IMG/VR virus record: IMGVR_UViG_3300033145_002043
Coordinates: 1 to 32,902 of that record
DNA length: 32,902 nucleotides
Origin: a virus
Direction: 5' to 3' (one strand)
Both the position numbers and the translations under genes were made by a program. Positions 5,902 to 32,452 of this stretch are shown in pieces (position 1 is the stretch's first letter; every line of letters begins with the position of its first letter). The notes under the pieces are model-generated. The model was not told the DNA's origin and ran no database searches. It saw only the letters and a program-made list of their open reading frames with translations.

Positions 5902-6810
5902 TTATTTGTGCCATTTGTAATTCTTCCATGTTGGTGGATTAAATTTTTTAACTAGCCACTCTAAATCATGAACAGCTTTATCCCACTTATTTCCTATCCA
6001 TAATTCTTTTGAATAGTTCCTTGCATTTTGAACTTGTCTACCTGATTGTTTATACGGAAACCCAAAGTCCCCACCTTGAGTTCTAAACATATGGGAAAAC
6101 CAAGTTTTCCTATTACACATCAATTTACCCCCAGATAACCAAGACTTTGCACCAACTTCAGTTCCTTGCTGACCCCAACTGCCATGTTTCTCATCACACA
6201 TATTTAGTTCCCAATACCTATCTCTTTCCAACATCCAACAAGCACCAAGTAAAGACATTGTTTCAACTATATTTTTTTCTTTAGGTGGTTTGTACCCACT
6301 ACCACCATATTGAAATCTTAAATCTGTATCAAAATACCATGACCATGTACACCTGTTTCTCCGTGGTTTCCATATCATCTTTCTTTCTGTTGGTTCACCA
6401 CATTCTTCACATGGGCCTGATGGACTTTGATACCTGTTATGCCCATTTTTACATACCCAATCAAAAGAATGTAAATTATACATTAAAGGTACAACAGTCC
6501 AATCCGGTTGCATATCTTTTATTAATTTTCTATCAAATCCTCTATCAAACATACAATGAGCATCCAATTTCATTACATATTTTGCTCTTGATAATGTACA
6601 TGCTAAATTTGTAGCTGCTCTTTGTCCTATTGCTTCAGGAACATAAACTAACGTAACATCTGTGTGGTCTTCTATTTCAGGATCTGCCCACTCTCCGTCT
6701 AAAACAGCTATAACTTCTGTATCAGCTTCCTTCTTAACTAATATGTCTTCAATTGTATTCTTTAAAAACATTTCATTTCTCGATGGGATTAAAATTGAAA
6801 GTTCTGCCAT
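5902..6810 (-). CDS. GT2 (polypeptide-GalNAc-transferase-like) glycosyltransferase with zinc-ribbon insert
   Basis: A 302-residue GT-A enzyme. MAELSILIPSRNEMFLKNTI opens the fold. VIAVLDGEW, YVMKLDAHCMFDRGFD with the DAH metal site, MSLLGACWMLERDRYW and GAKSWLSGGKLMCNRKTW follow, matching the larger GT2-methyltransferase fusion at 10331-11791. Between residues about 115 and 140 is an insert with CKNGHNRYQSPSGPCEECG, arranged like a C/H-C-C zinc ribbon and absent from the paralogue. GAGGAGAAATCCTAG provides the ribosome site, and no base separates it from the upstream stop. It probably transfers a hexose or HexNAc; the insert may select the acceptor. Confidence 0.86.
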   Translation of the reverse strand: MAELSILIPSRNEMFLKNTIEDILVKKEADTEVIAVLDGEWADPEIEDHTDVTLVYVPEAIGQRAATNLACTLSRAKYVMKLDAHCMFDRGFDRKLIKDMQPDWTVVPLMYNLHSFDWVCKNGHNRYQSPSGPCEECGEPTERKMIWKPRRNRCTWSWYFDTDLRFQYGGSGYKPPKEKNIVETMSLLGACWMLERDRYWELNMCDEKHGSWGQQGTEVGAKSWLSGGKLMCNRKTWFSHMFRTQGGDFGFPYKQSGRQVQNARNYSKELWIGNKWDKAVHDLEWLVKKFNPPTWKNYKWHK

Positions 6811-7545
6811 CTAGGATTTCTCCTCATAAATAGACCCATTATTCACCCTTCTTAAAAAGTCATTCCAAGGAGTTAACTTCCCCCAAAATGGTATGTCATA
6901 TGTTTCATTCCAACCTTGTCTACTATTAGGAGAACTGAATTGACTCTTATGCATTCGTTTTCTTGTATATGTACCTTCATGTCTAATATCTAAACAAGGT
7001 AGTTCAGCTTTCCATGTAACATACTTTGCTCTTTCTTTTGCAGGTATTCCTTTAGGTGGTGAATAACCAAGACTACTTTTAAATCCATGTTTCTCAGTCA
7101 ATTCAACTCGTCTTACCCAATGTCTCAGCATCAAATCTTTATGTGCAACTAAAAGACTTAATACATTCGTTTCATAGAATACACCAAGACCATAAGTTTT
7201 ACTTGATGAAACTGGATCTACAGCATATCTGTTTCTATTATAATAAAATATATCTTTCTTAGGTGGGATGAAATCAAAATGACTTGGATGATATAATATA
7301 TCATTTTCAATTAAATATATAATATCTGCATCAACTTGCTGTAATCCAAACAGTATCTTTTTAAATATCTGTAACGGCCCTCTAGGAATATCATCAATTA
7401 TAAAATTTCTACCAAGATCAGTAGGTATGCTTGACACTGAAACAATATCATGCTCCCCGGCACATCTCTTTAAGTTACTTCTACAGACTCCTAATAAATA
7501 TGGGTCTGATGTATTATCTGTATAATAAACTAATCCTTTTTTCAT
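6811..7545 (-). CDS. Glycosyltransferase-like protein (GT-A type)
   Basis: A 244-residue protein whose N-terminal half looks like a nucleotide-sugar transferase core: KKGLVYYTDNTSDPYLLGVC, LQIFKKILFGLQ and DADIIYLIENDILYHP, an acidic ENDxLY strand in the place of a DxD motif. FYETNVLSLLVAHKDLML and LPCLDIRHEGTYTRKR lie further on. I use the ATG at 7545, overlapping the dehydratase stop (ATGA) after TTGGAGTTCACAAC; a frame 18 nt longer lacks support. It fits the sugar operon. I cannot place it in a numbered GT family. Confidence 0.7.
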   Translation of the reverse strand: MKKGLVYYTDNTSDPYLLGVCRSNLKRCAGEHDIVSVSSIPTDLGRNFIIDDIPRGPLQIFKKILFGLQQVDADIIYLIENDILYHPSHFDFIPPKKDIFYYNRNRYAVDPVSSSKTYGLGVFYETNVLSLLVAHKDLMLRHWVRRVELTEKHGFKSSLGYSPPKGIPAKERAKYVTWKAELPCLDIRHEGTYTRKRMHKSQFSSPNSRQGWNETYDIPFWGKLTPWNDFLRRVNNGSIYEEKS

Positions 7546-8543
7546 GTTGTGAACTCCAACCACTTAGGGTTTTTTAAATACCATTGAATAGTAGTTTCAA
7601 TGGATCTTGTTATTGTCATAGGGGGTTTCCATCCTATGATTTTCATTAATGTTCCATCAAGAGCATACCTAAGATCATGCCCCGGCCTACTGCTATGAAA
7701 GTCTACCATCTCATAGTTCAACGTCTTTCCCAGTATGTCAGCTACTAACTTAGCCATTTCAAGATTAGACATCTCAGCTTCACCTACAATGTTATACTTT
7801 TGTCCAACCTCAAAGTTATTAAGAAGAAAATGTACCCCATTTGCTACATTACGACAATGGATATAACTTCTAACCCCCGAAACAGTTTTTGTTTTATCGG
7901 CATGGACTGTTATCTTATCCCCTTGTAATATATTTCTAATACAAAGAGGTATAAACTTTTCTGGATGCTGTCTTTCTCCAAACATATTCATACCATGTGT
8001 AATAAAAACCGGAACACCATATGTATTAGCAAAAGCAAGGCACATCTCCTCTGCTCCAGCTTTAGATGCAGAATAAGGATTCCCACTATTATATCTATCC
8101 CATTCTTTATATGCTTTTTCAACATTGTATGCTGGCCCAAAAACTTCATCTGTTGACATAAACAGCATAGCTTCAAGATTATCTAACTTACGAGCAAAGT
8201 TTAGCATATTACAAGTTCCCAACACATTAGCTTTAACAAATAGAATAGGGTCTATAATTGATCTATCAACATGAGTCTCACCAGCTAAATGAAGTAATAT
8301 ACTACTTTCTTTTAATTCCTTTAAAATACCTTCTGAAATTTCTTCAGACAAATCTACGGTATAGAATGTAACTCTTTTATTATCAAATACGTTAATATCC
8401 CGAACACGATCAAAACCATTAGCAGCATATGTTAACTTATCTAAAACAGCTATATCCCAATCAGTCTCTTTTAAAAAATGTTCAACAAAATGATGCCCTG
8501 CAAATCCACAACCACCAGTTATTATTATCTTTTTATTATTCAT
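7542..8543 (-). CDS. dTDP-glucose 4,6-dehydratase-like (RmlB-type) SDR
   Basis: A 333-residue extended short-chain dehydrogenase/reductase. NAD binding uses ITGGCGFAGHHFVEHF (residues about 8-23). HLAGETHVDRSI is the RmlB-type loop, FMSTDEVFG supplies the Thr-Asp-Glu catalytic triad typical of dehydratases, and NPYSASKAGAEEM holds the YxxxK pair. Later HGMNMFGERQHPEKFIPLC and GVRSYIHCRNVANGVHFLLN match the substrate-binding half of dTDP-glucose 4,6-dehydratase. It makes a 4-keto-6-deoxy nucleotide sugar, a precursor of rhamnose or amino-deoxy sugars. Its TGA overlaps the next ATG (ATGA). Whether the nucleotide is dTDP or another base cannot be told from the sequence. Confidence 0.88.
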   Translation of the reverse strand: MNNKKIIITGGCGFAGHHFVEHFLKETDWDIAVLDKLTYAANGFDRVRDINVFDNKRVTFYTVDLSEEISEGILKELKESSILLHLAGETHVDRSIIDPILFVKANVLGTCNMLNFARKLDNLEAMLFMSTDEVFGPAYNVEKAYKEWDRYNSGNPYSASKAGAEEMCLAFANTYGVPVFITHGMNMFGERQHPEKFIPLCIRNILQGDKITVHADKTKTVSGVRSYIHCRNVANGVHFLLNNFEVGQKYNIVGEAEMSNLEMAKLVADILGKTLNYEMVDFHSSRPGHDLRYALDGTLMKIIGWKPPMTITRSIETTIQWYLKNPKWLEFTT

Positions 8544-9242: not shown

Positions 9243-10019
9243 TCATTCTCCAATTTTAAATAGATGTCTTCTTCTAAGTGTTTTCATATGAGTTACTTCT
9301 TTATAGCCACTAATTTCTTTTAAAAAAGCACTCACTGTAGCTCTATCCTTCAACCACTTCACTCTGTATCTTCCATTACTGTCTCTACTTGCAGTTTGAA
9401 AGAACGTAGTCTTACTGTTTTTTATTAAATTAGATACTATCTCACTAGACTTCTCTCTGCCAAATTGCTTTACCAACCACATATGAACATTCATACATAT
9501 TGCTAAATCAACTTGTTTAAATTCTGTATCTGGTGTAACACCTTTCATCAATTCAATTTCTTTTAACCTATAGCACTTTCTTACCTGTTTTAAAAAATTA
9601 AACATAAGAGGATCAGCTTCATATGCAACTACAAAATCAACCATAAACTTTCTCATCAAATTAAAAGTTGTATATCCAGCAGCACACCCAAGATCTATAA
9701 CCGTTTTTGGTGGAGTTATAATATTTGAAAATATTATATCAACTTCTTTTGTACTATCTTTATGATATTCATGATCTTCAAAATAAGGTATATCAATCTT
9801 TTGGTATGTCTTCCCTAAAGTAGCTGCTGATCCATCATAATAGACATCACCAAACTTTTTTGTTAGATTCTTAATTACTTGAATTTGTTCATTAACTTTT
9901 GGTAGTACTGATATTATATCATTTTTTATCTTATTAATAGCATCTCTATCAGTTTTCCCCCATCTCCTATTAAGATTTTTTAAATCTCCTACCGTAACTC
10001 CATCTGTTCTAGCCCAAAA
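9243..10019 (-). CDS. SAM-dependent methyltransferase fragment of the interrupted fusion
   Basis: The frame gives 258 residues without an initiator until Leu/Met at 9659. Residues 1-60 (numbered from 10019) are FWARTDGVTVGDLKNLNRRW and a helical linker. The methyltransferase domain begins with PPKTVIDLGCAAGYTTF, a good SAM motif I, then FVVAYEADPLMFNFLKQV with the acidic ribose contact and DLAICMNVHMWLVKQFG as motif IV. It ends MKTLRRRHLFKIGE. If translation starts at 9659, motif I is lost and the 138-residue product would be inactive. It is followed after 4 nt by the sulfotransferase gene. Confidence 0.6.
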   Translation of the reverse strand, partial: FWARTDGVTVGDLKNLNRRWGKTDRDAINKIKNDIISVLPKVNEQIQVIKNLTKKFGDVYYDGSAATLGKTYQKIDIPYFEDHEYHKDSTKEVDIIFSNIITPPKTVIDLGCAAGYTTFNLMRKFMVDFVVAYEADPLMFNFLKQVRKCYRLKEIELMKGVTPDTEFKQVDLAICMNVHMWLVKQFGREKSSEIVSNLIKNSKTTFFQTASRDSNGRYRVKWLKDRATVSAFLKEISGYKEVTHMKTLRRRHLFKIGE

Positions 10020-10329
10020 GAAAAATATCTCTATGTTGAATATTTTCTTCTTCTAATATAGTCAAAATTTCATCAAACTGCCTGAAGAGTTCTTCTAAAC
10101 TTATTGAAAATAAAATTCGTCTTATGTTTCCGTTTATATCCCTATAATTACCTACACGACATTTGTATTTTTTCATAGTGTAAGAACCCTCACCAACACT
10201 TAAAACTTCAGGGGCATAAGGATTTGTGCCACCCCTTGAAAATTTATTAATACAATATAATTCATTCTCTATTGAAGATAGATGAGAATACTTTTTATTT
10301 TTATCTGTATACTTTTTTGTAAAAGTCAT
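10009..10329 (-). CDS. Kinase-like N-terminal fragment (106 aa)
   Basis: This is the translated upstream part of the interrupted fusion, starting MTFTKKYTDKNKKYSHL at the ATG that follows TTTTAAGGAATAAT. The upstream stop (10331) overlaps the ribosome site. It holds a helix Glu region (SSIENELYCINKF), a hinge-like SYTMKKYKCRVGNYRD, a long helix (LEELFRQFDEILTIL) and the catalytic-loop start ENIQHRD. It ends IFLLG at TAG. HRD without the following Asn or DFG cannot form an active site. The layout fits LPS-core-type sugar kinases, consistent with its neighbours. Confidence 0.55.
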   Translation of the reverse strand: MTFTKKYTDKNKKYSHLSSIENELYCINKFSRGGTNPYAPEVLSVGEGSYTMKKYKCRVGNYRDINGNIRRILFSISLEELFRQFDEILTILEEENIQHRDIFLLG

Positions 10330-10330
10330 A

Positions 10331-11791
10331 TTATTCCTTAAAATAAAACCAAGATGAACAAGCATCACCACGATTCTCTCTTGGTGCTTTCTTATCCGTT
10401 AAGTATATCTGTTCAATCTTATAAGCTTTTGCAAAATCTAATAGAGCGTGGGCAACCTTTGGATCTTTTTTAATCTCACCACTACCTTTATATTCAAAGT
10501 CATGACCAGCAACAATACCCCCCGGCCTAACTTTTCTGCTCCATAATATTAAATCCATCATAGCAAAATCATAAGTGTGCTCACCATCAATATACACAAA
10601 ATCAAGGGTATTATCAGGTATATCATAAGATGCTACATCAGAAAACTTCTCTATCCAGAACAATCTGTCATTATATACAGGATCTGTAAATCTACCGTAT
10701 GCCTGTCTCTTAAACTTTTCATGCGTTTTCCTACCCCATAATCTTTTGTTACTCATATGATCAGCATAAGGTTCAATAAGAAATAAAGATAAATTTGGAA
10801 TGTTATCAAACATTACTTTAGCATTTCTACCCCTTTGAACACCAATCTCTGCACCAAGCTTTAACCCAAGCTCTGCAAAATACCTATACAACCCCGCTCT
10901 TTTCATTCCCTTTTTTATAATTAATTTCTTATCTGACATTAATATAGTTTCCTCCCCCTCTTCTATTGTTGGTGTTTTGATGAGAAGATCCTCATCAAAA
11001 ACATCTTCCCATGTTGGTACAGGGCTAAAATGGTTAATAAGCCATTCTAATTTTCTAGTCTGTTTATCCCATTTATTATTTTTCCATATATCAACAGCAT
11101 AATCTATTGATTTTTTCTTATCATCCCTGTTAGAATATGTCATATCCTTAGAACCCTTAGACCAATGTGCATACCATGTTTTTCTATTTAATTTACATTG
11201 ACCACCAGATAACCAAGATTTTAAACATATTTCTTGAGCTTCTCTGCCCATACCACCATAGTTAACTTCATCCAAACCACCTATTTCAAAGAATCTTTCT
11301 CTGTGCATAAACCAACAACTTCCTTGAAATGTCATTAAATCAGGCAATCCTTCACTAGTAACTCGTTCAGAATATTCAGGCCATTTTCTTCCTTTTAGAT
11401 CTTCTTGGGATATATATTCAAACTCATATTTTTTATTTAGATTCTTTTTCCAAGTTTTTACATCTAAAGAGTATCTAACAGGAACTACTGTCCAGTCAGG
11501 TTTACACTCAAGTTTTAATACTTCATCAAATGCGTTATCAAAAGCACAATGTGCATCACACTTTAAAATATATTTACCTTTAGCCATCCTAGCGGCTGAA
11601 TTTATGGAGTATCGCATTCCCTTTCTAGTACCATTATGCAATATTTTAATTTTTTTATTATCTTTTAATTCAACCCAATATCCATCGAGACATACTATAA
11701 TTTCTATATCCCCTTCGGCTTTTTCCAATATATCATCCACTGTACGTTGTAACCATATCTCCTTATAAGCAGGTATAATAACAGAAATCAT
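10331..11791 (-). CDS. GT2 glycosyltransferase fused to a methyltransferase (MT24-like)
   Basis: A 486-residue bifunctional enzyme. Residues 1-240 form a GT2 domain: MISVIIPAYKEIWLQRTVDD, IIVCLDGYWVE, KYILKCDAHCAFD holding the metal-site DAH, FQGSCWFMHRE and SWLSGGQCKLNRKTWYAHW. Residues about 290-486 form a class I methyltransferase of the methyltransferase-24 type: LGAEIGVQRGRNA, LFLIEPYADH, LDFVYIDGEHTYDFAMMDL and RPGGIVAGHDF. The ATG at 11791 is used because AAGAAAGGAATAGAT precedes it; a 7-codon longer frame is less likely. The GT2 half is paralogous to the gene at 5902-6810. Probably glycosyl transfer coupled to sugar methylation. Confidence 0.87.
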   Translation of the reverse strand: MISVIIPAYKEIWLQRTVDDILEKAEGDIEIIVCLDGYWVELKDNKKIKILHNGTRKGMRYSINSAARMAKGKYILKCDAHCAFDNAFDEVLKLECKPDWTVVPVRYSLDVKTWKKNLNKKYEFEYISQEDLKGRKWPEYSERVTSEGLPDLMTFQGSCWFMHRERFFEIGGLDEVNYGGMGREAQEICLKSWLSGGQCKLNRKTWYAHWSKGSKDMTYSNRDDKKKSIDYAVDIWKNNKWDKQTRKLEWLINHFSPVPTWEDVFDEDLLIKTPTIEEGEETILMSDKKLIIKKGMKRAGLYRYFAELGLKLGAEIGVQRGRNAKVMFDNIPNLSLFLIEPYADHMSNKRLWGRKTHEKFKRQAYGRFTDPVYNDRLFWIEKFSDVASYDIPDNTLDFVYIDGEHTYDFAMMDLILWSRKVRPGGIVAGHDFEYKGSGEIKKDPKVAHALLDFAKAYKIEQIYLTDKKAPRENRGDACSSWFYFKE

Positions 11792-11804
11792 ATCTATTCC
11801 TTTC

Positions 11805-12341
11805 TTAGTCAATTTTATAAAAATATTCCGTATCTATAGGGTTTATAACCTTATCCTTAGTTGTATTATACCCCGTTATAAGTTTTAAAGCATTACACTT
11901 TGATCTTATAATATTATTTGAAAGTATAAAAGCTTCATGATTTTTATCACTACCATACATGAATAATTTAAGGTTAAGTTGTTTCCTCAAAGCTATCAAA
12001 ATATCATATAATATATTATTATTCTGAAAATATATCGTATTTATACCTGACACCATTAGTAAAAACTGTAAATGCACAATAAACTTTTGTATAACGTCAC
12101 CTTCAGAAAATTTAAAATTTGATATCTTTTTAATTCCTAATGATTTACCTATATTAAAAACGTCAAAACGCCTTTGTTCAGATACAGATTGTTTACATAA
12201 GAAATTACAATTATGAATTGGTATATCAGAATCATCTGAAAATATGATGACTTCATACATACTACTATTTTTAGCAATAATACCTGCACAATATTTTACC
12301 CAAGAATAAGAGTCATACGAAATAATAATAGATTTACACAT
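11805..12341 (-). CDS. Hypothetical protein (178 aa), faintly PIG-L deacetylase-like
   Basis: An alpha/beta protein starting MCKSIIISYDSYSWVKYCAG. The order of elements resembles PIG-L N-acetylglucosaminyl deacetylases: the first strand, then GIIAKNSSMYEVIIFSDDSD, a central VHLQFLLMVSGINTIYFQNN and a C-terminal KLITGYNTTKDKVINP. The HPDD and later His zinc ligands are absent, so it is either inactive or a different family. It overlaps the previous gene by 8 nt and is followed by a GT2 fusion, which fits a sugar pathway. Low confidence in any family. Confidence 0.5.
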   Translation of the reverse strand: MCKSIIISYDSYSWVKYCAGIIAKNSSMYEVIIFSDDSDIPIHNCNFLCKQSVSEQRRFDVFNIGKSLGIKKISNFKFSEGDVIQKFIVHLQFLLMVSGINTIYFQNNNILYDILIALRKQLNLKLFMYGSDKNHEAFILSNNIIRSKCNALKLITGYNTTKDKVINPIDTEYFYKID

Positions 12342-12543
12342 TTAACATTTCCTCTCTACATAATTCACTTTTTCGTAAATCTGAATACCTACATCCAATA
12401 TCTTCATGTGCTAATTTATGACATTCATAACTATCACGCTTTTCATTACAATTTTTATATTCTTTGGATAATAGTATATACTTTCTATCTTTAAACTGTT
12501 CTTTAACATATTGATATGTTAACTTTTTTCTAGAGTGTGTCAT
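12334..12543 (-). CDS. Small protein with a truncated zinc-ribbon-type 'YVKE...LLSKEYKN' domain
   Basis: A 69-residue protein. KLTYQYVKEQFKDRKYILLS followed by KEYKNCNEK matches the N-terminal strand-helix of a small domain often found beside homing endonucleases and in virus proteins, usually followed by a CxxC...CxxC ribbon. Here the ribbon is replaced by an irregular C/H region (YECHKLAHEDIGC, then SELCREE), so metal binding is doubtful. It overlaps both neighbours (4 nt and 8 nt). It may be a remnant or a small regulator; no function is assigned. Confidence 0.5.
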   Translation of the reverse strand: MTHSRKKLTYQYVKEQFKDRKYILLSKEYKNCNEKRDSYECHKLAHEDIGCRYSDLRKSELCREEMLNV

Positions 12544-13331
12544 ACGTTATCAATAATATCCTTTGCTGTTATTAACTTTAAATCTGGAGATTGTTTATAT
12601 TTTCCCGGCACTTTTAACAATCTACATTTATTAATTATTTTATCTCCATTTTCGCCAATTATAAATACTGAAGTATTTAAAATAACTGGTATATAAGCAA
12701 ATTGGTTATCGACTGTGATAGTCATAACTGAATTTTTAGTATATGCCATTACATCTTTCATACTTTTAACTACAGCTGCATTATCAAAATCATACCTACT
12801 GTTATTATACAACACTACATTATTTTTTTTGTTAAGTGTCTCTATTACACCATCCCAGACTTCTTTTTCAATTTCATCACTAACGTAGATCATAACAATA
12901 TTCTTATCCGATTTAATTTCCTGTATAGGATAATTAATGAATTCATTTGAATTAACTTCCATTAATTTTGAGTCTCCTCTCGGACACCAAAACTCTAAAG
13001 CTTTACCAGTATTATAAAATTGTCTAAAATATTTCATTAACTTCATATATACATCTGGGTCTGTATATAAATTACCCCCAGAAACTGCTTCATAGTTTAA
13101 TGGGGTTAAATTTTTCTTTAAAAACCAATCAGGAAGATCAATATTCCATTTTACAAAATCTTCTATGTAAGGGTATAATTCATTATCACACATAACTAAA
13201 AAACTATAATCCTTATAATCCCCCTTACTAAGATATCTTAACCTACCCTGAAATTTATTTAAAAACGTTCTGATATCACCAACAAAAAACACAGTCAATA
13301 CTGGTTCATCAACATAAAAGTCTGAAGTCAT
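12540..13331 (-). CDS. Hypothetical protein of the sugar cluster (263 aa), possibly GT-B-like
   Basis: An alpha/beta protein beginning MTSDFYVDEPVLTVFFVGDI. Its middle has KNIVMIYVSDEIEKEVWDGV and NNVVLYNNSRYD. The C-terminal half runs through MTITVDNQFAYIPVILNTSV, then FIIGENGDKI, an arrangement reminiscent of the nucleotide half of GT9/ADP-heptose-type glycosyltransferases (fixed-time strand followed by a small-residue turn). The similarity is faint, and no diagnostic motif is complete. It is the first gene after the membrane-protein block and overlaps the next small gene by 4 nt. Glycosyltransferase-related is my guess; otherwise unknown. Confidence 0.55.
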   Translation of the reverse strand: MTSDFYVDEPVLTVFFVGDIRTFLNKFQGRLRYLSKGDYKDYSFLVMCDNELYPYIEDFVKWNIDLPDWFLKKNLTPLNYEAVSGGNLYTDPDVYMKLMKYFRQFYNTGKALEFWCPRGDSKLMEVNSNEFINYPIQEIKSDKNIVMIYVSDEIEKEVWDGVIETLNKKNNVVLYNNSRYDFDNAAVVKSMKDVMAYTKNSVMTITVDNQFAYIPVILNTSVFIIGENGDKIINKCRLLKVPGKYKQSPDLKLITAKDIIDNV

Positions 13332-14242: not shown

Positions 14243-14520
14243 TCCATACCTTCTTCCCCTTCATAAAACCCATCAGAATCTTCAGTTAATTTAGTTTTAG
14301 CATATATTCTTATACTAAAAACAGTGAGAAAACTCCCGAATAAAAATCCCAATCCAACTTCAACGGGTATTAAGGATACCCATACATCCTCAACCCACCT
14401 ACCCTCAAATATACCGAATATCACTGGTAAATATAAAAGTATAAGCCACTGATATTTCATGGATGAAAGGTTACGCAAGTTTTTTTGTAACCATAAAGGC
14501 CAAAATTTTGACCACTCCAT
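14239..14520 (-). CDS. Two-span membrane protein, holin candidate
   Basis: A 93-residue protein with two membrane segments at residues about 23-40 (YQWLILLYLPVIFGIFEG) and 50-72 (LIPVEVGLGFLFGSFLTVFS). The N-terminus is basic and aromatic, and the C-terminal tail is acidic (EDSDGFYEGEEGME). Size, topology and place between two other envelope proteins fit a class II-type holin. However, no endolysin gene is visible in the window, so the lysis role is not proven. TTAGGAGAGTTGTT gives its ribosome site, and its stop overlaps the next start by 4 nt. Confidence 0.55.
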   Translation of the reverse strand: MEWSKFWPLWLQKNLRNLSSMKYQWLILLYLPVIFGIFEGRWVEDVWVSLIPVEVGLGFLFGSFLTVFSIRIYAKTKLTEDSDGFYEGEEGME

Positions 14521-14530
14521 AACAACTCTC

Positions 14531-17617: not shown

Positions 17618-17639
17618 TTACCTACTAACTAGTAGGTAA
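17618..17639 (-). repeat. Hairpin over the capsid-gene stop codon
   Basis: A perfect 9-bp stem (TTACCTACT / AGTAGGTAA) with a 4-nt loop covers the last codons and TAG stop of the major capsid gene. It is the first of two hairpins in a row. It may protect the capsid mRNA 3' end after processing at the tRNA downstream. It lacks a T-run, so it is not a classical terminator on its own. Confidence 0.55.
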
Positions 17640-20291: not shown

Positions 20292-20367
20292 TCTTTTTCC
20301 TTTTCTTAGTATTTTTTTTCTTTTTCTCGTTTGCTTTCCTAAGATCTTTATTTCTTTTCTTACCCAT
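20275..20367 (-). CDS. Tiny lysine-rich protein (30 aa)
   Basis: A 30-codon ORF starts on the ATG that overlaps the portal stop (TAATG) and ends with TAA inside the next gene. It begins MGKKRNKDLRKANEK, and about half of its residues are Lys or Arg, ending in SDDDK. The double coupling and the absence of any other use for this interval support it being translated. A strongly basic peptide beside the portal could bind DNA or the scaffold, but no function can be assigned. Confidence 0.5.
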   Translation of the reverse strand: MGKKRNKDLRKANEKKKKNTKKRKKSDDDK

Positions 20368-24702: not shown

Positions 24703-25357
24703 CCTTTACACCCTTAGACACATTTTCTATTTCATTAAAAAATTTCTTTATATTTATATCTTTGAACACTTGGTAAATCCCATTCGCAAATTGTGTCAAA
24801 TACAATTCATAATTAAAATCTTCTTCCGTAATACTATGTCTATATATAACAGCTAATATCATAGAATAAATAAAATTAATAACTTGTATATCTTTATTAA
24901 TATCATACCCTAGAAGTTTATCCCCTAATAAAATAAAACAATCATTATTATCACAACAAGTTGTCATAAGATTACTGATATTATCTTCTTCAAATATATC
25001 ATCAAAATCATAAGGATATACAACATCATACTTAAACCCACTAATCATAACTGACTCTGGAATAATACCATTGATAAAATCATCATTATTTTTTATAAGT
25101 TGAAATAATGCATTTGTAAATTTTTCTACACATAACTCTTTCAAAATATACCCACAATATACAAAATCAATTGCATGTATTATTTCATGTAAAAATATTT
25201 CTACCAAACTCTGATCTGAATTCTTTTCATCAATAATGATCATAGCTCTTGGACTTTTACATAACCCTGAAACTCCTGTTAAATCCCTATTTAAGTCTTT
25301 TAATATAATATTATAAGTAACACCACCAACTTTAATACTCTTTGGAAATTTTATCAT
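24695..25357 (-). CDS. Small zinc metallopeptidase-like protein (HEXXH)
   Basis: A 220-residue cytoplasmic protein carrying the zincin motif LHEIIHAIDFVYCG (residues about 57-70). It follows IIIDEKNSDQSLVEIF, the arrangement seen in short phage- and plasmid-encoded metallopeptidases of the ImmA/SprT type. A third zinc ligand is not obvious, although the E in KELCVEKF a few residues on is a candidate. The C-terminal half (residues about 85-220) has no recognised domain and may be a specificity module. The gene is TAATG-coupled to the CgeB-like gene upstream and overlaps the HTH gene downstream by 8 nt. Possible roles are proteolysis of a host regulator or head maturation. Neither is shown. Confidence 0.65.
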   Translation of the reverse strand: MIKFPKSIKVGGVTYNIILKDLNRDLTGVSGLCKSPRAMIIIDEKNSDQSLVEIFLHEIIHAIDFVYCGYILKELCVEKFTNALFQLIKNNDDFINGIIPESVMISGFKYDVVYPYDFDDIFEEDNISNLMTTCCDNNDCFILLGDKLLGYDINKDIQVINFIYSMILAVIYRHSITEEDFNYELYLTQFANGIYQVFKDINIKKFFNEIENVSKGVKDA

Positions 25358-26214
25358 TAATAGATCCTCTCAATAATTTCTTTAGCCCTAATTTCATATC
25401 TATGATTCAAAACAGCTTCTTTATACCCATTATCTGCTATAACATACCTACGTTTTTCGTTGTTTAAATAATAGTTTAATCTCCATATCAACTCTTCATC
25501 CACATCATAGGATGCAAAATGGTATACATCTTTAAACGGATTATTCATATTTAACCTCTCCGATAACAAAAATGACTTAGAACCTAAAACTTCATAAACT
25601 CTTGTTTCCATGTCTAGATAATCTTCTGCATGGATATTTAAAATTATCTTACTTTTATTAAACTCCTCATTCAGATCTTTACCAAACTTAGTAGACACTG
25701 ACACCTTAAAATACTTTGATATATTTTTTAAAATAGCATGTCTTCTTGGGGTCATAACCCCCGAAAATAGTATATCAATACTTTTTTCACAACCGGGTAT
25801 AGGTTTATAAATATTTGTACTAAAACCATTTAATAATACTGAACTTTTATCATAATCAGCATTTGCAAGTTTCATACACTCTGATGAATGGAAAAATATG
25901 TAATCAAACAACCCAGACTCTAAAAGTCTATCCTGATCCCTGTTCCTACTAACAAGCTCACTTGCAAAAAAAACTTTCTTACATTTCATTGATTTTATAA
26001 TATCTAAGGGGAACCCATCACCACGCTGAAGAAAGAATAAATCAAAATCCATACTTGACATAGCTTCCTTATGTTTAGTATGTATCTCGTCCCTATGCTT
26101 TCTATAGTCTATACAATATGTAGTGTGTCCTAATTTTTTAAACCCATCATCTATGAAAGACTCAGCACCCCACCCTGCATTATTCTCATGTACTGCATAA
26201 TATAATATATTCAT
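25357..26214 (-). CDS. CgeB-like GT-B glycosyltransferase
   Basis: A 285-residue protein with the layout of CgeB/GT1-like glycosyltransferases. The N-terminal Rossmann half is MNILYYAVHENNAGWGAESF, DLFFLQRGDGFP and YIFFHSSE. The C-terminal half has LLNGFSTNIYKP, IDILFSGVMTPRRHAIL, SKIILNIHAEDYLDMETRVYE and VLGSKSFLLSER, which matches the conserved R-x-(Y/F)-E-x-x-(G/A) donor region, then HRYEIRAKEII at the end. Length is a little short for the family (about 300-400). It is coupled to its neighbours by a 4-nt overlap upstream and TAATG downstream. It probably adds a sugar within the same pathway; specificity is unknown. Confidence 0.82.
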   Translation of the reverse strand: MNILYYAVHENNAGWGAESFIDDGFKKLGHTTYCIDYRKHRDEIHTKHKEAMSSMDFDLFFLQRGDGFPLDIIKSMKCKKVFFASELVSRNRDQDRLLESGLFDYIFFHSSECMKLANADYDKSSVLLNGFSTNIYKPIPGCEKSIDILFSGVMTPRRHAILKNISKYFKVSVSTKFGKDLNEEFNKSKIILNIHAEDYLDMETRVYEVLGSKSFLLSERLNMNNPFKDVYHFASYDVDEELIWRLNYYLNNEKRRYVIADNGYKEAVLNHRYEIRAKEIIERIY

Positions 26215-26984
26215 CTACTCTCACCTTTATATATATACTTACCAAACTTATCCATATTTTTTAGAACGTAATTCGGAACATCTAACTCGTCAATATACCA
26301 ATCTATATTTCTACCAAATATATCTATCTGGTTTTCCATACAATATAATATCCACTCATCTTTTTTAAATTTATCCAGATCAAACTCAACTTCAACTAGA
26401 TTACCTATTTTTTCTTTTATATCATTAAGATATGAAAAATGCCATCCACCGGGAGTAGCCAAGTGTGGGATATAACTCTCTCTGACTTGACTAAATGTTG
26501 TTAAATCTCTACTTTTTAATAACACAGTACCAGTAACCCAATCAGTCTTACACCTACAGTTCATATAATAATAATAGAATTTTTGATTTAATCTTATGGG
26601 GGTATCAAACCCATCCCTTATTATTTTACTTATCCCCGGATGTGGTATTTCATCTATATCCCCAATTAATAAAATATCATCAGCCTTAAACTTAAACTGT
26701 GTTATAAAAGAATTCCTTTGTACAAATTCATTTAACTTTCTTTTCTTCTTTTCAAATGTATGTAATTTAATAGGCATATTCTCATCAATAACAATGTTTA
26801 ATATTTTATATTCATTAGATCTGAATTTATCTCTATTTTCGTTAAAGTATAATGGTTTTTTATCCCCAGAAAAAGTATAAATAGACTCTGTAAGAATAAA
26901 AACATCCACTAAATCTTTTAGGGTGTTAAGCCTAATCTCTAATAAATCAAGTTCATTATTGAAAGGAAAAATATCATATACCAT
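26211..26984 (-). CDS. GT17-family glycosyltransferase (copy 2)
   Basis: A 257-residue paralogue of the preceding gene. It keeps the same markers: MVYDIFPFNNELDLLEIRLN, ILLIGDIDEIPHP with the DxDE acid cluster, FYYYYMNCRCKTDW, GTVLLKSRD and GGWHFSYLND. By eye roughly half of the positions are identical to copy 1, with divergence concentrated between the N-terminal block and the DxDE motif and at the C-terminus. This suggests an older duplication followed by specialisation for a different acceptor or linkage. The start overlaps copy 1 by 11 nt, and the stop overlaps the next gene's ATG region by 4 nt, so all three are probably translated together. Confidence 0.88.
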   Translation of the reverse strand: MVYDIFPFNNELDLLEIRLNTLKDLVDVFILTESIYTFSGDKKPLYFNENRDKFRSNEYKILNIVIDENMPIKLHTFEKKKRKLNEFVQRNSFITQFKFKADDILLIGDIDEIPHPGISKIIRDGFDTPIRLNQKFYYYYMNCRCKTDWVTGTVLLKSRDLTTFSQVRESYIPHLATPGGWHFSYLNDIKEKIGNLVEVEFDLDKFKKDEWILYCMENQIDIFGRNIDWYIDELDVPNYVLKNMDKFGKYIYKGESR

Positions 26985-27744
26985 TACATATATACTTTCT
27001 GTATTTATCTATGTTATTTGTAACATACTCAGGAACATCTAACTCCTCAATATGATACTTTATATCACGATTAAATATATCTTTTTTATCCCTAAGACAT
27101 TTATCTATCCAATCTTTACTTTTAAATTTTTCTAAATCAAATTCAGCCCCTGCTAAATTCCCTATCTTTTCACTTATATCATTAAAAATATAAGAAAAAT
27201 GCCAGCCTCCGGGTTCTAGTATAATGGGTATATCCTTTTTTCTCAATTCACTAAAACTTGTAAAATCTTTACCTTTTAACATAACAGTACCACTTAACCA
27301 ATCATTTTCACATCTACAATTCATATAATAGTAATAAAACTTTTGTCTTAATCTGATAGGTTGATCAAACCCATGTTCTATAACATCCGTAATCAAAGGA
27401 TTTGGTATTTCATCTACATCACCAATTAATAAAATATCATCACTTTTAAACTGTATATGGTTCATAAATAAATTTCTCTGAACATGCTCATTAGTTTTTC
27501 TCTTAACTCTACTTTTAGTGGGAGTCTTAAATGGCATATTCTCACCTAATATTATATGAAAAACTGCGTAATCGTCTGACTTAAACATCCCTTTATGCTC
27601 ATCAAAATATAATGATTTTTTATTACCTGAATAAGTATAAATACTCTCAGTGATAATAAAAACATCAACAAAATCTTTTAATGTGTTTAATCTCAACTCC
27701 AATAAATCAAGCTCATTATTAAATTGAAAAATATCATATATCAC
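26974..27744 (-). CDS. GT17-family glycosyltransferase (copy 1)
   Basis: A 256-residue protein matching the GT17 pattern, the family of eukaryotic MGAT3 beta-1,4-N-acetylglucosaminyltransferase with many bacterial and viral members. Markers are MIYDIFQFNNELDLLELRLN at the N-terminus, DVFIITESIYTYSG, a metal-binding ILLIGDVDEIPNP, FYYYYMNCRC, SGTVMLKGKDF and GGWHFSY near residue 180. It lies head-to-tail with a second copy, overlapping it by 11 nt, and the two align along their whole length. It is presumably cytoplasmic and adds a sugar such as GlcNAc to a glycan; the substrate is not deducible. GT17 enzymes are not among the commonest phage glycosyltransferases. Confidence 0.88.
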   Translation of the reverse strand: MIYDIFQFNNELDLLELRLNTLKDFVDVFIITESIYTYSGNKKSLYFDEHKGMFKSDDYAVFHIILGENMPFKTPTKSRVKRKTNEHVQRNLFMNHIQFKSDDILLIGDVDEIPNPLITDVIEHGFDQPIRLRQKFYYYYMNCRCENDWLSGTVMLKGKDFTSFSELRKKDIPIILEPGGWHFSYIFNDISEKIGNLAGAEFDLEKFKSKDWIDKCLRDKKDIFNRDIKYHIEELDVPEYVTNNIDKYRKYICNGI

Positions 27745-27750
27745 TTATAA

Positions 27751-28809
27751 TTACCTTTCACAAACTATCACAAATTCACCATTATTTTCCTCTAACACGA
27801 AAAACAAAAACATAGTTAATTCGTTTATCCTATTTATAATATTATTAGAGTCTGTTATACCATTTAATTCTTTTCCTATAAATACCAAGGTATTACACAT
27901 TTTAGAAGCATCAAAAATCTTATCTTCACTTGGGCTATTTAATATAATTATATCAGACTTTGTATTTATATCATCTTTAGATATAATAACATCAGTTGTA
28001 TTAATTATTTTACTTAAAATGTCTACATCTATATTTTGTTTACCTTCTGGTTTACATTTTTGCGTATAATCATCTGATTTTCTTGCAGATATTACTATGT
28101 CATAATCAGGTCTAAACGTTCCAGTATTTATATCTGCAAACCCCTCAGCATACTTAAAAAATTCATTAATCATATCCTTAGTCAGATATAATGTGTGAGT
28201 CACTTCTAATCTTAAATTATAATCACACATATACCCATCTGGGACAAACATTATCAAATAACCATTTGGTTTCAAAACTTTAAAAGTTTCTTTAAGAACA
28301 GTTATAGGTTTTTCTACATGCTCAAAAGTGTGGGAAGACACAACAAAATCAAATTTATTATTATCAAAATGTTTTGATACCTCAGACCAATTAGAAGAAA
28401 TCATTCTATCTTTTGGATATTTATCGATACCCCACTCCCTGTGTTCAAAATTTATCTTACCATCTTCATAATTTTTATCAATTGCAACCCAATTAGGGTA
28501 TTTATTATGATCAAACAAAGCATAATCACCCGGCCCAACTTCTAAAATATAACTATCTTTTGTTAATCCCGGAAAATTATTTTTAATATAATAATTCATA
28601 TATTTTTGTGGGGGTGTTTTTTCCTCAAAATAATACCCACCAACAATCCCTATAGAATATAAATATTTATGTATCCCTACACATGTATCCTCACTAATGC
28701 CCGTTACTTTAGAACACATATCAATAGACCTAAACCCATCATATTTAGTAAAAAACTTACGTACTTCATTTACCTCTCTTCTCTCTACTTCTACCCTATG
28801 TTCTGTCAT
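27751..28809 (-). CDS. SAM-dependent methyltransferase with N-terminal winged-helix-like segment
   Basis: A 352-residue protein. Residues about 10-55 read like a winged helix (VRKFFTKYDGFRSIDMCSK, then GISEDTCVGIHKYLYSIGI). Residues about 75-205 form a class I (methyltransferase type 11) domain: SYILEVGPGDYALFD as motif I, VAIDKNY as the acidic ribose contact, FDFVVSSHTFEHVEKP as motif IV and LKPNGYLIMFVPDGY as post-motif III. The remaining 120 or so residues form an unassigned alpha/beta segment. It probably methylates a sugar or lipid-linked glycan, given glycosyltransferases on both sides. The N-terminal segment may bind substrate rather than DNA. The start overlaps no gene and follows the kinase-like gene by 15 nt. 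Confidence 0.8.
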   Translation of the reverse strand: MTEHRVEVERREVNEVRKFFTKYDGFRSIDMCSKVTGISEDTCVGIHKYLYSIGIVGGYYFEEKTPPQKYMNYYIKNNFPGLTKDSYILEVGPGDYALFDHNKYPNWVAIDKNYEDGKINFEHREWGIDKYPKDRMISSNWSEVSKHFDNNKFDFVVSSHTFEHVEKPITVLKETFKVLKPNGYLIMFVPDGYMCDYNLRLEVTHTLYLTKDMINEFFKYAEGFADINTGTFRPDYDIVISARKSDDYTQKCKPEGKQNIDVDILSKIINTTDVIISKDDINTKSDIIILNSPSEDKIFDASKMCNTLVFIGKELNGITDSNNIINRINELTMFLFFVLEENNGEFVIVCER

Positions 28810-28824: not shown

Positions 28825-29403
28825 CTATTTATTTATAAAATCACGCCTAACTTTTAATAAATTACCTAATATCTTATTATTTTTACGTGCAAATTCATGA
28901 TACCTACTTTCATCAGTTTCAAGATCAACTATCTTTATGCTTTTAGCCTCTTCATTAATTATAATGTTATTATAATTAACTTCAAAAAATTTATTCATAT
29001 CATATTTTATCAATAACTCTATAAACCTTATTAATTCATTTAACACTACTACAAATTGTAATCTACTTAACTTCAAGTTTGATGTAAACTTAACCCCATC
29101 ACAATGTTCACACAATATCTTACCATCATCATAATCATAAGCTTTCATTGTAATACTAGAACTTTCAAAAAATTTACACATATTATATTCAAGAAACCCA
29201 ATATGTTTATTCTCTAAATATTCTTTTACAAAGTATGTATTATTACCACGATCTTTAACAATATGAAAAACCCTACCATGAAATATATTTGGGATATTAT
29301 TATTATTTACATCATCCACTGAAAAATATTTTTGGTCTGAAGCCCCACATGTTCTATAAAAAGACCTAACAATGTCATACTCTTCATTATTTATCTGTAA
29401 CAT
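28825..29403 (-). CDS. Kinase-like (LPS-core/aminoglycoside kinase type) small protein
   Basis: A 192-residue protein with the outline of a protein-kinase-like fold. It has a candidate ATP-lysine strand (TYFVKEYLE, residues about 57-65), a helix glutamate in HIGFLEYNMCKFF, a hinge-like ILCEHCDG, a catalytic-loop-like segment ending VNYNNIIIN and a DFG-position IKIVDLETDE. The canonical HRD is replaced by NKFFEVN, so catalysis is uncertain. WaaP/WaaY-type kinases phosphorylate lipopolysaccharide sugars, and the setting in a sugar cluster fits a glycan kinase or a pseudokinase. The gene overlaps the upstream fusion enzyme by 13 nt. The fold call rests on motif order alone, hence moderate confidence. 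Confidence 0.5.
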   Translation of the reverse strand: MLQINNEEYDIVRSFYRTCGASDQKYFSVDDVNNNNIPNIFHGRVFHIVKDRGNNTYFVKEYLENKHIGFLEYNMCKFFESSSITMKAYDYDDGKILCEHCDGVKFTSNLKLSRLQFVVVLNELIRFIELLIKYDMNKFFEVNYNNIIINEEAKSIKIVDLETDESRYHEFARKNNKILGNLLKVRRDFINK

Positions 29404-31349
29404 TTAATTATAACCCTTTCAATATCATGAATCGGTAAAAATCCTATAACCTCAAACTCTGTGAAAGAGGTATGATCTTTTAGTTCTTTCTTAATACCAT
29501 CGAAATAGCATATATGTTCAGGAAGTTTATCTTTCCAACTAAAAGTACCTGATTCATTAGTCTGACCAGTTTCAAATATCATAATATCAGTATACTCACT
29601 TATTTTTTTAAGGATCTGTCTTGCTTTATCCAACCCTTTTAAATTAATTAAGTGATGATAAGCACTCATAAATAATGTAATAGAGGTAAATTTAAAATCC
29701 CAATCTTCAATATCTATCCTTGTGAAGCTGACATTAGATGATGCTTTATTTTTATTTGCAATATTATTACATCCTATATCTAAAACATCTTTATTATCAA
29801 AACTCACAGCATTTTTAATAATATCTAATTTTTGTTTATTTCTCTCTGTATACCTTTCCTGATAAGTACTATCAGTTACTACAACACCTTCATCAACTTT
29901 AAAACAACCTAAACCCCCCCATTTTTGTATAAATAAAGTTTTATTTTTAACTACTTTTTCTATATACTCTGGGTCTAAATCTCTTACAAATCCACCAAAA
30001 TGTTCAATAACACCATCAGAATGAAATATTTTATACCCTATATTACGCAATGTCATACAAATATCTACATCTTCCCACCCATTTATATAACTCTGATCAA
30101 ATAAACAAACTTCAAATAATATATCTTTTTTAAATAAAATACAAGAACCACCTACAAATGTAACTTCTGTAGGGGTATCATCAAGAGGATCATATTCCTC
30201 ATCAAGCCCTATTTGAATGGAGTTAAAAGAAGGATAATCAAATGTACACCCTTTATTTATAATAATATTCGTACCCATACGTAAATTTGTTGGGGCTACG
30301 GCAGCTATTCTATCATCACTTTCAATAGTATCTAACATTTTGGATAACCAACCAGAATGTACTACAGTATCAGCATTAATAGTAACTACATATTCGTACT
30401 GAGCAAGCTTAAACCCAACATTATTAGCTTTAGAAAACCCTAAGTTTTTATGTAATGTTATATACTTAACACCACTACTTTCAAGATACTCTAAAAAATC
30501 TTCATCCCCACCCCCATCATTTATAACAATTATTTCATACTCTTCCTCAGTATTCTTCTTAATTGATTCTATACACTCCTGAAGGAACTTTAACTTTAAG
30601 GTAGGTATAATTATACTAACTTGCCTACTTGATTTTGGTACACTTTTGGGTATTGTATCTTTCTTAACATCTATTTTAGATTCAAACAATTCAACATCTT
30701 TATTACCAACTTTTATTAATATCTCTATTATTTTCCTATAAGGTAAAGTTGAAAGTTCAGAGATATTATATATTTTATTTAGAAACCTTTTAAAATCTTT
30801 TAACTCTTTTAAATCACGATTTGATTTAGTTACCTGCTGTAAAAGTATAGTAGAAGCCCAAGATATTAAATTATCATTATTATATATTCCATATGCCACA
30901 TCAATTTCTTCTAAATATTTAACAACATCATACAAATCTGGTAACCCATTATCGATGTGCTCTTTTAAGTTAAGATTACCAGTGATATCATAAATTAACT
31001 TTTCTGCATCAGCAACAAAAGGTTCATTAAAGGGGCATGCAATTATAGCTTTATACTTAGCTAATCTAATAGCTTCTTCTAAAAAATACATTCTTTTATC
31101 TGGCAAAACATGTTCAAAGGTATCAATTGATATTACAAAATCAAAAGATCTATCACCATAATTAGAGGTTGCTGGGGTATTATATTGGGGGTTAACAACA
31201 GTTATATTATCTCCAAAAAACATTTTTATTTCCTCATCAGCAGGATTCCCCCCAATATCTAATATACTAAAATCACCCTTTGGGACTAATTCACTAATAG
31301 TTAACCATCTCCTAAATACATCCGGGCTTACATCATAAATATCTGTCAT
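29391..31349 (-). CDS. Methyltransferase - GT2 glycosyltransferase - methyltransferase fusion
   Basis: A 652-residue multidomain enzyme. Residues about 25-110 form a class I SAM methyltransferase-like domain (SILDIGGNP, then FDFVISIDTFEHVLPDKRMY). Residues about 244-455 form a GT2 (GT-A fold) glycosyltransferase: VSIIIPTLKLKFLQ, VINDGGGDEDFLE, NLGFSKANNVGF, the metal-site region TINADTVV, the GGSCILFKK acceptor loop and WEDVDICMTLRNIGY with the catalytic-base ED. Residues about 518-600 form a second methyltransferase-like domain (KDVLDIGCNNIA, then LFMSAYHHLINL) that lacks a full GxGxG loop. The protein could add a sugar and methylate it, or cap a growing chain. It is coupled to both neighbours: TAATG with the upstream GT and a 13-nt overlap with the downstream kinase-like gene. 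Domain calls are firm; the combined activity is inference. Confidence 0.88.
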   Translation of the reverse strand: MTDIYDVSPDVFRRWLTISELVPKGDFSILDIGGNPADEEIKMFFGDNITVVNPQYNTPATSNYGDRSFDFVISIDTFEHVLPDKRMYFLEEAIRLAKYKAIIACPFNEPFVADAEKLIYDITGNLNLKEHIDNGLPDLYDVVKYLEEIDVAYGIYNNDNLISWASTILLQQVTKSNRDLKELKDFKRFLNKIYNISELSTLPYRKIIEILIKVGNKDVELFESKIDVKKDTIPKSVPKSSRQVSIIIPTLKLKFLQECIESIKKNTEEEYEIIVINDGGGDEDFLEYLESSGVKYITLHKNLGFSKANNVGFKLAQYEYVVTINADTVVHSGWLSKMLDTIESDDRIAAVAPTNLRMGTNIIINKGCTFDYPSFNSIQIGLDEEYDPLDDTPTEVTFVGGSCILFKKDILFEVCLFDQSYINGWEDVDICMTLRNIGYKIFHSDGVIEHFGGFVRDLDPEYIEKVVKNKTLFIQKWGGLGCFKVDEGVVVTDSTYQERYTERNKQKLDIIKNAVSFDNKDVLDIGCNNIANKNKASSNVSFTRIDIEDWDFKFTSITLFMSAYHHLINLKGLDKARQILKKISEYTDIMIFETGQTNESGTFSWKDKLPEHICYFDGIKKELKDHTSFTEFEVIGFLPIHDIERVIIKCYR

Positions 31350-32452
31350 TATAATAATTCCTTCATCTTTGACTTTAAATTTTCCATACTAAAATTTTTT
31401 TCTATAAAATTCCTTGCATTTTCACCTTTTTCAATCCTATTCTGAAAATTCAATAACTTATCAACAAATGCATTGTAATCCAAAACAGCTTCAGGAAATA
31501 TTACATTGTCATATCTTGGAACCCTATTAACTACAGGAATCAAATCCCCAGTAATACCATCATTTACAAACTCATTCATAGGAGGTTCATCTGTAGCTAT
31601 TACAGACATACCACTTGCCATACCCTCCAATAGGGGAAGACCAAGACCTTCCAATTTTGATATAAATATTAATATGTTACCTTTAAAATACATACCGGGG
31701 TGTGGTATATTACCAATAAAATACACAAGCCTATCATTATTTTGTATGATCTCAATTATCTCAGGGGGTAACTTGGTATATTCTGCCTGTGAGTGAATAA
31801 ACATTGTTATATCTAAATTTTGCTTACTTGCCTCATCAAACCCTTTGATCACCATAGGTGTATTTTTCCTATAGTTATTACCTAACCATCCAGCATTATG
31901 AAAGAATGTAAATTTAGTACTTTTTGGGAAAAACATATTCTTGCTCTTAACATAATCCCTTTTTACGTTTGACATAATCTCAGGAGTTGGTTTGAACAAA
32001 TCAGTATCAACACCCCACCCTATATATTTAGCATTACAAAAATCTTTCACCATATCATAAGATCTATGGGTGGAGCACCAAACCTCATCATATAGATCCA
32101 TCCTCTCTTTCCAAGCTTCCATATAAAAATCAAGATAAGTTATAATCTTAGCATTTGTCTTTTCTTTAGTCTGTTCAACCAAATCAAAGTCATATTCCTC
32201 ATTAAAGACAACCATATCTAACTTATTCTCATTGACCCAATCAACAAAATCAGGTGGGTGGACTTTATATGCATGATACCTTTTTAAATTATCTATCTCC
32301 CAACCTTCACCAAACTCCATCTGACTAACACCAAACACAGCACCAGTTCTAGCAAAAACAAATAACTCATGACCTTCAATAGCTTTTATCAATGTTTTTG
32401 TTATGTATGTAGCCCCACGTTCAAACCAAATAGTTAAAAAACCTATTCTCAT
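31349..32452 (-). CDS. GT-B fold glycosyltransferase (group 1 / GT4-like)
   Basis: A 367-residue protein that probably transfers a sugar from a nucleotide-sugar donor to a glycan acceptor in the cytoplasm. The N-terminal half begins MRIGFLTIWFERGATYITK, the usual first beta-strand and acceptor-side loop. The C-terminal half has the donor-binding pattern of GT4 enzymes: a NAGWLGNNYRKN strand-loop, IFISKLEGLGLPLLEGMASG (the E-x7-E type region) and VIATDEPPMNEF. A longer reading frame begins 48 nt upstream, but the sequence AAAGGAGAAGTTATAATG puts an ideal ribosome site in front of the start used here. Its stop overlaps the next ATG (TAATG), indicating translational coupling with the fusion enzyme downstream. 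Family assignment is firm; donor and acceptor are unknown. Confidence 0.88.
   Translation of the reverse strand: MRIGFLTIWFERGATYITKTLIKAIEGHELFVFARTGAVFGVSQMEFGEGWEIDNLKRYHAYKVHPPDFVDWVNENKLDMVVFNEEYDFDLVEQTKEKTNAKIITYLDFYMEAWKERMDLYDEVWCSTHRSYDMVKDFCNAKYIGWGVDTDLFKPTPEIMSNVKRDYVKSKNMFFPKSTKFTFFHNAGWLGNNYRKNTPMVIKGFDEASKQNLDITMFIHSQAEYTKLPPEIIEIIQNNDRLVYFIGNIPHPGMYFKGNILIFISKLEGLGLPLLEGMASGMSVIATDEPPMNEFVNDGITGDLIPVVNRVPRYDNVIFPEAVLDYNAFVDKLLNFQNRIEKGENARNFIEKNFSMENLKSKMKELL

Follow-up and report, generated by a model that had tools for sequence, protein, structure and literature searches.

Mucin-type O-glycosylation in animals is the work of the GALNT enzymes, and GtfA/GtfB serve the glycosylation of bacterial serine-rich-repeat proteins. 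Glycosylation of the proteins of phage particles has, as far as the literature found extends, been shown in a few cultured phages only. The mycobacteriophages Che8 and Rita carry glycans at the C-termini of their capsid and tail tube subunits, according to a study (Freeman et al. 2023) represented here by two papers that cite it (PMC11256854, PMC12619734), and Maravista has two glycosyltransferases (PMC11256854). Pelagimyophages possess a hypervariable region rich in glycosyltransferases, mostly of family GT8, near the tail-fibre genes, which has been read as a means of modifying host O-chains (PMC7029224), and Patescibacteria phages carry the O-antigen nucleotide-sugar genes rmlB, galE and gmd, read as enhancing adhesion to the host (PMC12911398). 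The subject of this report is a locus of glycan-modifying enzymes in a 32,902-base fragment (IMG/VR record IMGVR_UViG_3300033145_002043, hereafter the window), which is cut at both ends, holds nearly all of its genes on the minus strand and comes from an uncultured lineage of viruses of bacteria. It shares with the mycobacteriophage systems glycosyltransferases (GTs) encoded by the phage, with pelagimyophages a variable region that lies close to structural genes and is rich in GTs and in genes for sugar precursors, and with Patescibacteria phages an rmlB-type gene and LamG-type lectins; the cellular relatives of its GT2 family are mostly Patescibacteria. A scan of 84,980 bacterial and archaeal genomes for relatives of the major capsid protein, made in search of a host, found none.

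With moderate confidence, the gene block downstream of the capsid gene is taken to be a late, cytosolic glycosylation locus within the structural module, whose enzymes attach a short, modified glycan to proteins of the phage's own virion; the position among structural genes, the apparent solubility of the enzymes and the conservation of the locus favour such an activity. Enzymes of the GT2 family that resemble polypeptide N-acetylgalactosaminyltransferases (GalNAc-transferases, GalNAc-T) would place the first sugar on serine or threonine of a virion surface protein, a GT9-like enzyme, a putative GT-A enzyme and other GTs would lengthen the glycan, a dehydratase would provide a deoxy-sugar precursor, and methyltransferases and a sulfotransferase would cap the product, with more sugars possibly added by the enzymes of a second block upstream (GT4, a GT2 fusion, two GT17, a CgeB-like GT and methyltransferases). 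Late expression, the acceptor, the order of reactions and the benefit (masking, stability or receptor fit) are elements of this proposal that we infer.

Forty IMG/VR records make up the lineage, namely the window and 39 relatives found by portal and capsid profile searches, and isolate phages are remote from it (capsid about 25% identical in five records). Their gene maps follow a constant order of terminase, portal, scaffold-like protein, small head protein, capsid, a few small genes, a GT9-like gene, mostly a CgeB-like GT gene, a variable cassette, the head-tail adaptor and tail-like genes. In all 14 records that extend at least 5 kb beyond the capsid gene, the GT9-like gene follows it at a distance of 3.2-8.8 kb, which is the linkage of phage GTs to structural genes expected of virion glycosylation. 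A head-tail adaptor gene (PF20557, phrog_477) was found in 7 of those records and is beyond the GT9-like gene in 7/7, placing the glycan locus between the capsid and neck genes. The cassette differs from record to record, its contents being GT2, GT8, GT9, DegT aminotransferase, B12-radical SAM, methyltransferases including the FkbM type, sulfotransferase, RmlB and sugar-nucleotidyltransferase genes, and the smallest version consists of three GTs (GT9-like, CgeB-like and GT9, in records G033 and G034). Because the GT9-like gene is fixed in place while the cassette varies, the downstream block is a locus of the whole lineage in which the contents can be exchanged.

Enzymes of the window were assigned by Pfam matches above curated cut-offs and head genes by PHROG matches. 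The downstream block comprises, starting nearest the capsid gene:

12540..13331, minus strand: GT9-like GT-B glycosyltransferase, core of the conserved block; divergent copy, with only noise in Pfam
12334..12543, minus strand: open reading frame (ORF) of 69 residues between the two core genes, a possible mobile-gene remnant; weak match to an ORF of the related locus L004
11805..12341, minus strand: predicted PIG-L/LmbE-fold protein (Foldseek E 6.8e-8, Z 17.7 over 175 residues)
10331..11812, minus strand: GalNAc-T-like GT2 fused to Methyltransf_24 (PF00535 2.3e-15, PF13578 1.4e-12), with a DAHC motif
10009..10371, minus strand: N-terminal piece of a broken kinase-methyltransferase gene, 60% identical to the related locus L101
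9243..9659, minus strand: C-terminal (methyltransferase) piece of the same broken gene, 59% identical to L101
8555..9238, minus strand: 3'-phosphoadenosine-5'-phosphosulfate (PAPS) sulfotransferase (PF00685 1.1e-13), with YPKSGRTW, RRQPCDVMVS and RKGKVG motifs
7542..8543, minus strand: dTDP-glucose 4,6-dehydratase-like protein, RmlB (PF16363 2.4e-42; best PDB match 1.8e-61)
6811..7563, minus strand: putative GT-A enzyme with an ENDILY motif, GT2 partner gene; no Pfam or PHROG match
5902..6810, minus strand: zinc-ribbon GT2 with a DxH motif, polypeptide GalNAc-transferase-like (PF00535 7.4e-9)

The initial annotation, made from the sequence of the window, had named the GT2-Methyltransf_24 fusion, the sulfotransferase, the RmlB-like gene and the zinc-ribbon GT2, each of which exceeds its Pfam cut-off where it had been placed, but had overlooked the GT9-like gene at 12540-13331 and the PIG-L/LmbE-fold gene at 11805-12341. 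Alignments of the GT9-like and LmbE-like families gave nothing useful in sequence searches of solved structures, and both assignments were settled by predicted structures. The GT9-like family has 20 copies in the lineage and none outside it in IMG/VR or in isolate phages. A relative of the window copy, modelled with a pLDDT of 86, has as its best fold match heptosyltransferase II of E. coli (1psw, Z 18.3, root-mean-square deviation 3.8 over 244 residues) and also matches the protein heptosyltransferase TibC (Z about 15), with no sequence match to PF01075 for either the modelled relative or the window copy. The latter lacks the family motifs PRGRARAxNRN and SSQSGGTH and is degenerate, possibly inactive. 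The product of 11805-12341, for which a truncated GT-B had been considered and is ruled out by the PIG-L/LmbE fold, belongs to a family of 150-180 residues present in six records, usually just ahead of the head-tail adaptor gene; the HPDDE zinc motif is gone from this family, with S-x-[DN]-[ST]-Y in its place in 5/5 aligned members, so that the predicted structure keeps the deacetylase fold, which is conserved, but lacks the known catalytic site.

The RmlB-like protein has the TDE and YxxxK motifs of the short-chain dehydrogenase/reductase family and is closest to RmlB, but its best NCBIfam model, TIGR01181 (dTDP-glucose 4,6-dehydratase), scores 283.6 bits against an equivalog cut-off of 365.1, leaving its substrate uncertain. 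The GT-A call at 6811-7563, which matches nothing in Pfam or PHROG, gains from the presence of homologues in 105 of 115 loci around the zinc-ribbon GT2 family. The second kinase-like call of the initial annotation proves to be one broken kinase-methyltransferase gene (10009-10371 and 9243-9659), intact in L101: by comparison with that copy, about 18 residues around the kinase catalytic loop have been lost and the frame changes within 9243-10371; this reflects either a dead gene or an error of assembly at that spot. The phosphorylated glycan proposed with it is not upheld, this gene being broken and the other supposed kinase, at 28825-29403 in the upstream block, matching no kinase family.

The broken kinase-methyltransferase and the degenerate GT9-like copy would fit a region of cargo, in which host glycan cassettes are moved about by homing endonucleases and recombination, have little function for the phage and are partly decaying; one NUMOD3-type homing endonuclease-like cluster is represented 42 times in 27 records of the lineage, frequently in the gaps between head genes. 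That the GT9-like gene nevertheless holds the same place in 14/14 records, and that catalytic motifs are intact in the sulfotransferase, RmlB, GT17 and DxH GT2 genes, implies selection on the block and makes this explanation improbable.

The two GT2 domains of the downstream block are nearest to polypeptide GalNAc-transferases, as glycosylation of virion proteins predicts. The zinc-ribbon GT2 alone gave 14 sequence matches among solved structures, 13 of them named GalNAc-transferases, and the top 14 PDB matches of a profile built from 21 phage relatives are all polypeptide GalNAc-transferases (best E 1.2e-10); the GT2-Methyltransf_24 fusion has a weak match to GALNT2 (E 0.05). This signal is not general to GT2, since the GT2 domain of the fusion protein at 29391-31349 matches chondroitin synthase, not GalNAc-T, among solved structures. 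The 21 relatives are 48-75% identical, with DAHC and the zinc-ribbon cysteines invariant and SWGxQGxE nearly so, and thus the GT-A domain, the DxH metal motif and the WGxE-type acceptor motif characteristic of GT27 are all present. The ricin-type lectin domain of GALNT enzymes is absent from the 302-residue protein, in which Pfam finds Glycos_transf_2 only, and for this reason it is called GalNAc-T-like and not filed as a GT27 member.

Relatives of the zinc-ribbon GT2 were found in at least 135 uncultured IMG/VR contigs and in none of 50,697 isolate phages. They also occur in 35 contigs of metagenome-assembled genomes (MAGs; L181-L215), 29 of which carry Patescibacteria group names and in which methyltransferases and GTs lie near the GT2 gene. 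Phage and cellular copies are interleaved in the phylogenetic tree by 13 changes, at least 9 of them forced by well-supported branches; two identical pairs raise the possibility that some of the cell contigs are phage DNA that was put into MAG bins. Among phage loci, the GT2 gene often adjoins a Methyltransf_24-type gene or a member of the putative GT-A family of 6811-7563, as it does in the window, and in other phages genes for head proteins, head-tail adaptors and endolysins are among its neighbours. The block most closely related to that of the window, in L101, shows the same order of GT2-Methyltransf_24, kinase-methyltransferase, GT-A and zinc-ribbon GT2 genes, after which comes a protein of 1378 residues with a serine-rich stretch.

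A strict Ser-Pro-Ser repeat ORF is present in 65 of 80 viral loci of this GT2 family (the 80 loci include near-duplicates and represent about 74 distinct GT sequences), on the strand of the GT gene in 65/65, compared with 0 of 27 records (717 kb) of the window's lineage. A looser measure yields 90 repeat ORFs in 64 loci, all on the same strand and 71 of them within 1.5 kb of the cluster, and several of the repeat proteins resemble LamG or fibre proteins, by eye, outside their repeats. Such ORFs are also near the GT2 gene in 18 of 35 cell loci. The reverse test, with a Ser-x-Ser DNA pattern whose matches are mostly low-complexity artefacts, is consistent with this, although on small numbers: the GT was found in 2/5 loci with strict Ser-Pro-Ser repeats and in 0/75 others. 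A literature search gave no match for serine-rich-repeat or GalNAc-transferase systems of phages, most subscription papers being outside that search. Somewhat tentatively, these associations suggest a phage mucin-type O-glycosylation, in which the GalNAc-T-like family, common in uncultured phages, shared mostly with Patescibacteria and absent from cultured phages, would glycosylate mucin-like Ser/Pro-repeat stalks of fibre-like proteins; the window's two copies would be members acting on an acceptor elsewhere in the genome or on another Ser/Thr-rich virion protein.

Alternatively, the enzymes may alter a surface glycan of the host (lipopolysaccharide (LPS) core, S-layer or other) during infection, thereby blocking superinfection or the adsorption of progeny to debris. 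LPS biosynthesis typically involves enzymes of the GT9, GT8 and RmlB types, the best fold matches of the core GT are LPS heptosyltransferases, the GT2/Methyltransf_24 gene set is shared with Patescibacteria genomes, and comparable roles have been proposed for pelagimyophages and Patescibacteria phages (PMC7029224, PMC12911398). On the other hand, hydropathy predicts no protein with three or more membrane spans in any block of the window or its relatives, and hence no flippase, polymerase, ligase or GtrA-like partner; a weak GtrB-like PHROG match is confined to the GT2 fusion. The location of the locus inside the structural module, the likeness of two of its GTs to protein-modifying GalNAc-transferases and the linkage of GT2 to Ser/Pro-repeat phage proteins elsewhere likewise speak for the virion as the target, and modification of the host surface is considered unlikely, if a serious contender.

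Phage GTs often modify DNA, and one methyltransferase domain matches phrog_2675, named 'DNA methyltransferase', so that glycosylation or hypermodification of the phage genome against restriction was also considered. The genes are found with structural rather than replication genes, no gene of the thymidylate synthase family is present in 13 records (fragments, one of 96.9 kb; TET and other base hydroxylases were not searched), and we know of no DNA-modification pathway with a sulfotransferase, RmlB or GT17. DNA is considered a very improbable target.

Several points weigh against decoration of the virion itself. The window, which ends in LamG proteins and is cut at both ends, contains no mucin-like repeat protein. 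The GT2 gene set is present in Patescibacteria genomes too, presumably for the cell surface, and the phage could therefore be altering its host. Enzymes of the LPS core such as GT9 and GT8 also act in the cytosol and require no flippase dedicated to them. Finally, the degenerate GT9-like copy and the broken kinase-methyltransferase suggest that the block may be partly decaying.

The head genes of the window and its probable appendage are as follows:

21922..23775, minus strand: terminase large subunit (phrog_38 4.7e-90), without intein
20367..21911, minus strand: portal protein (phrog_145 7.8e-65)
18603..19067, minus strand: small head protein ahead of the capsid gene, decoration-like by position; kept in relatives, no PHROG match
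17625..18587, minus strand: major capsid protein (weak match to phrog_371, 3.4e-6), 51-67% identical in relatives
17490-17566: tRNA-Pro (TGG), directly after the capsid gene
687..2288, minus strand: LamG-domain protein, probable virion appendage (PF13385 in two stretches, 3.2e-11)

The terminase and portal genes are strongly matched and the capsid gene weakly. The lysis genes said to lie among the head genes were not recognised anywhere in the window, in which only single-span proteins are predicted. In many capsid proteins of the lineage, including that of the window (17625-18587 region), the last few residues are rich in Ser and Thr (e.g. PTS, SSS, ASS) and might serve as an acceptor, and small proteins between the capsid and glycan genes (family c12, e.g. 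L002:12307-12636) contain 27% Ser+Thr against an ORF mean of 12.6%. Intein-like insertions at varied sites lengthen the terminase large subunits of relatives to 951-1382 residues (L002:3671-6526, L003:3614-6700, L004:1748-5896), and an intein is also found in a radical SAM gene of G026 (L071:12001-14145). A GT-B-like protein of family c27 (e.g. G021, oriented 13350-14534), with a weak match to glucosyltransferase 4w6q (E 2e-4), is encoded in several relatives among the tail genes, close to one that resembles a tail-tube gene.

On the terminase side of the head genes, the upstream block comprises:

31349..32500, minus strand: GT4 glycosyltransferase (PF13692 4e-11, PF00534 2.3e-10)
29391..31349, minus strand: methyltransferase-GT2-methyltransferase fusion (PF00535 1.2e-24); N-terminal Methyltransf_11 barely over the cut-off, C-terminal methyltransferase by eye
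28825..29403, minus strand: 'kinase-like' protein, unverified; no Pfam kinase, sole match phrog_4040 of unknown function
27751..28809, minus strand: S-adenosylmethionine (SAM) methyltransferase (PF08241 2.4e-10)
26974..27744, minus strand: GT17 glycosyltransferase (PF04724 1.7e-27), with a DVDEIP motif
26211..26984, minus strand: GT17 glycosyltransferase, paralogue (PF04724 1.4e-26)
25357..26214, minus strand: CgeB-like glycosyltransferase, Glyco_trans_1_2 (PF13524 1.8e-13)

Apart from the supposed kinase, these enzymes exceed their Pfam cut-offs as initially called, and the glycan genes are indeed divided by the head genes, although of the two blocks the downstream one alone characterises the lineage. 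Glycan genes upstream are rare, being found in 2 of the 8 records whose sequence reaches at least 14 kb upstream of the capsid gene (the window and G034), a count based on searches for GT2, GT4, sulfotransferase and epimerase, GT17 and PF13524 not having been searched likewise. The upstream block of G034 (L067:535-6955, L066:18223-19560) encodes NeuB, an M28/DUF4910 peptidase-like protein, a radical SAM-B12 protein, a methyltransferase and a GT2-cytidylyltransferase fusion, which suggests a nonulosonic acid. The upstream CgeB-like gene of the window was rejected as an orthologue of the relatives' downstream CgeB-like genes, to which it is only 14-22% identical. No relative was encountered that keeps the head genes and lacks both blocks. 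The proposal of a glycan arsenal directed at the phage's own capsid or fibres thus holds in that the arsenal exists, its downstream half is inside the structural module, its enzymes look soluble and two GT2 domains are nearest to GalNAc-T; it is not borne out where it counts the upstream block with the downstream one as a single conserved system.

The claim that such breadth is unlike any described system was too strong, because glycosylated mycobacteriophage virions, pelagimyophage LPS-type sets and Patescibacteria-phage O-antigen genes have been described (PMC12619734, PMC7029224, PMC12911398). The general kind is already known; what is new is a fixed capsid-neck locus with a lineage-specific GT9-like core, a protein predicted to have a deacetylase fold but no metal site, and the association of a GalNAc-T-like family with Ser/Pro-repeat proteins in uncultured phages. 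For mycobacteriophages only a few GTs are described, whereas the window, of an unrelated lineage, has at least 10 enzymes between capsid and neck genes, among them GalNAc-T-like GT2, a sulfotransferase and RmlB. Unlike the pelagimyophage region, the locus has a fixed place between the major capsid protein and head-tail adaptor genes and a GT9-like core specific to its lineage. If the proposed role is correct, a capsid-neck locus that is conserved throughout an uncultured lineage while its sugar genes are quickly replaced would imply that sugar coats on virions are widespread among phages and open to evolution, and the GalNAc-T-like family with its adjoining Ser/Pro-repeat proteins offers a directly testable pair of enzyme and substrate. 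The phage GT2 enzymes are not GtfA/GtfB of the bacterial serine-rich-repeat system. What they have in common with animal GALNT and the serine-rich-repeat systems is a GalNAc-T-like enzyme and, in other phages, a Ser/Pro- or Ser-x-repeat protein encoded next to it, but they lack the ricin lectin domain, have an additional zinc ribbon, are encoded by phages and are presumably cytosolic. They may constitute a bacterial and viral counterpart of mucin-type O-glycosylation.

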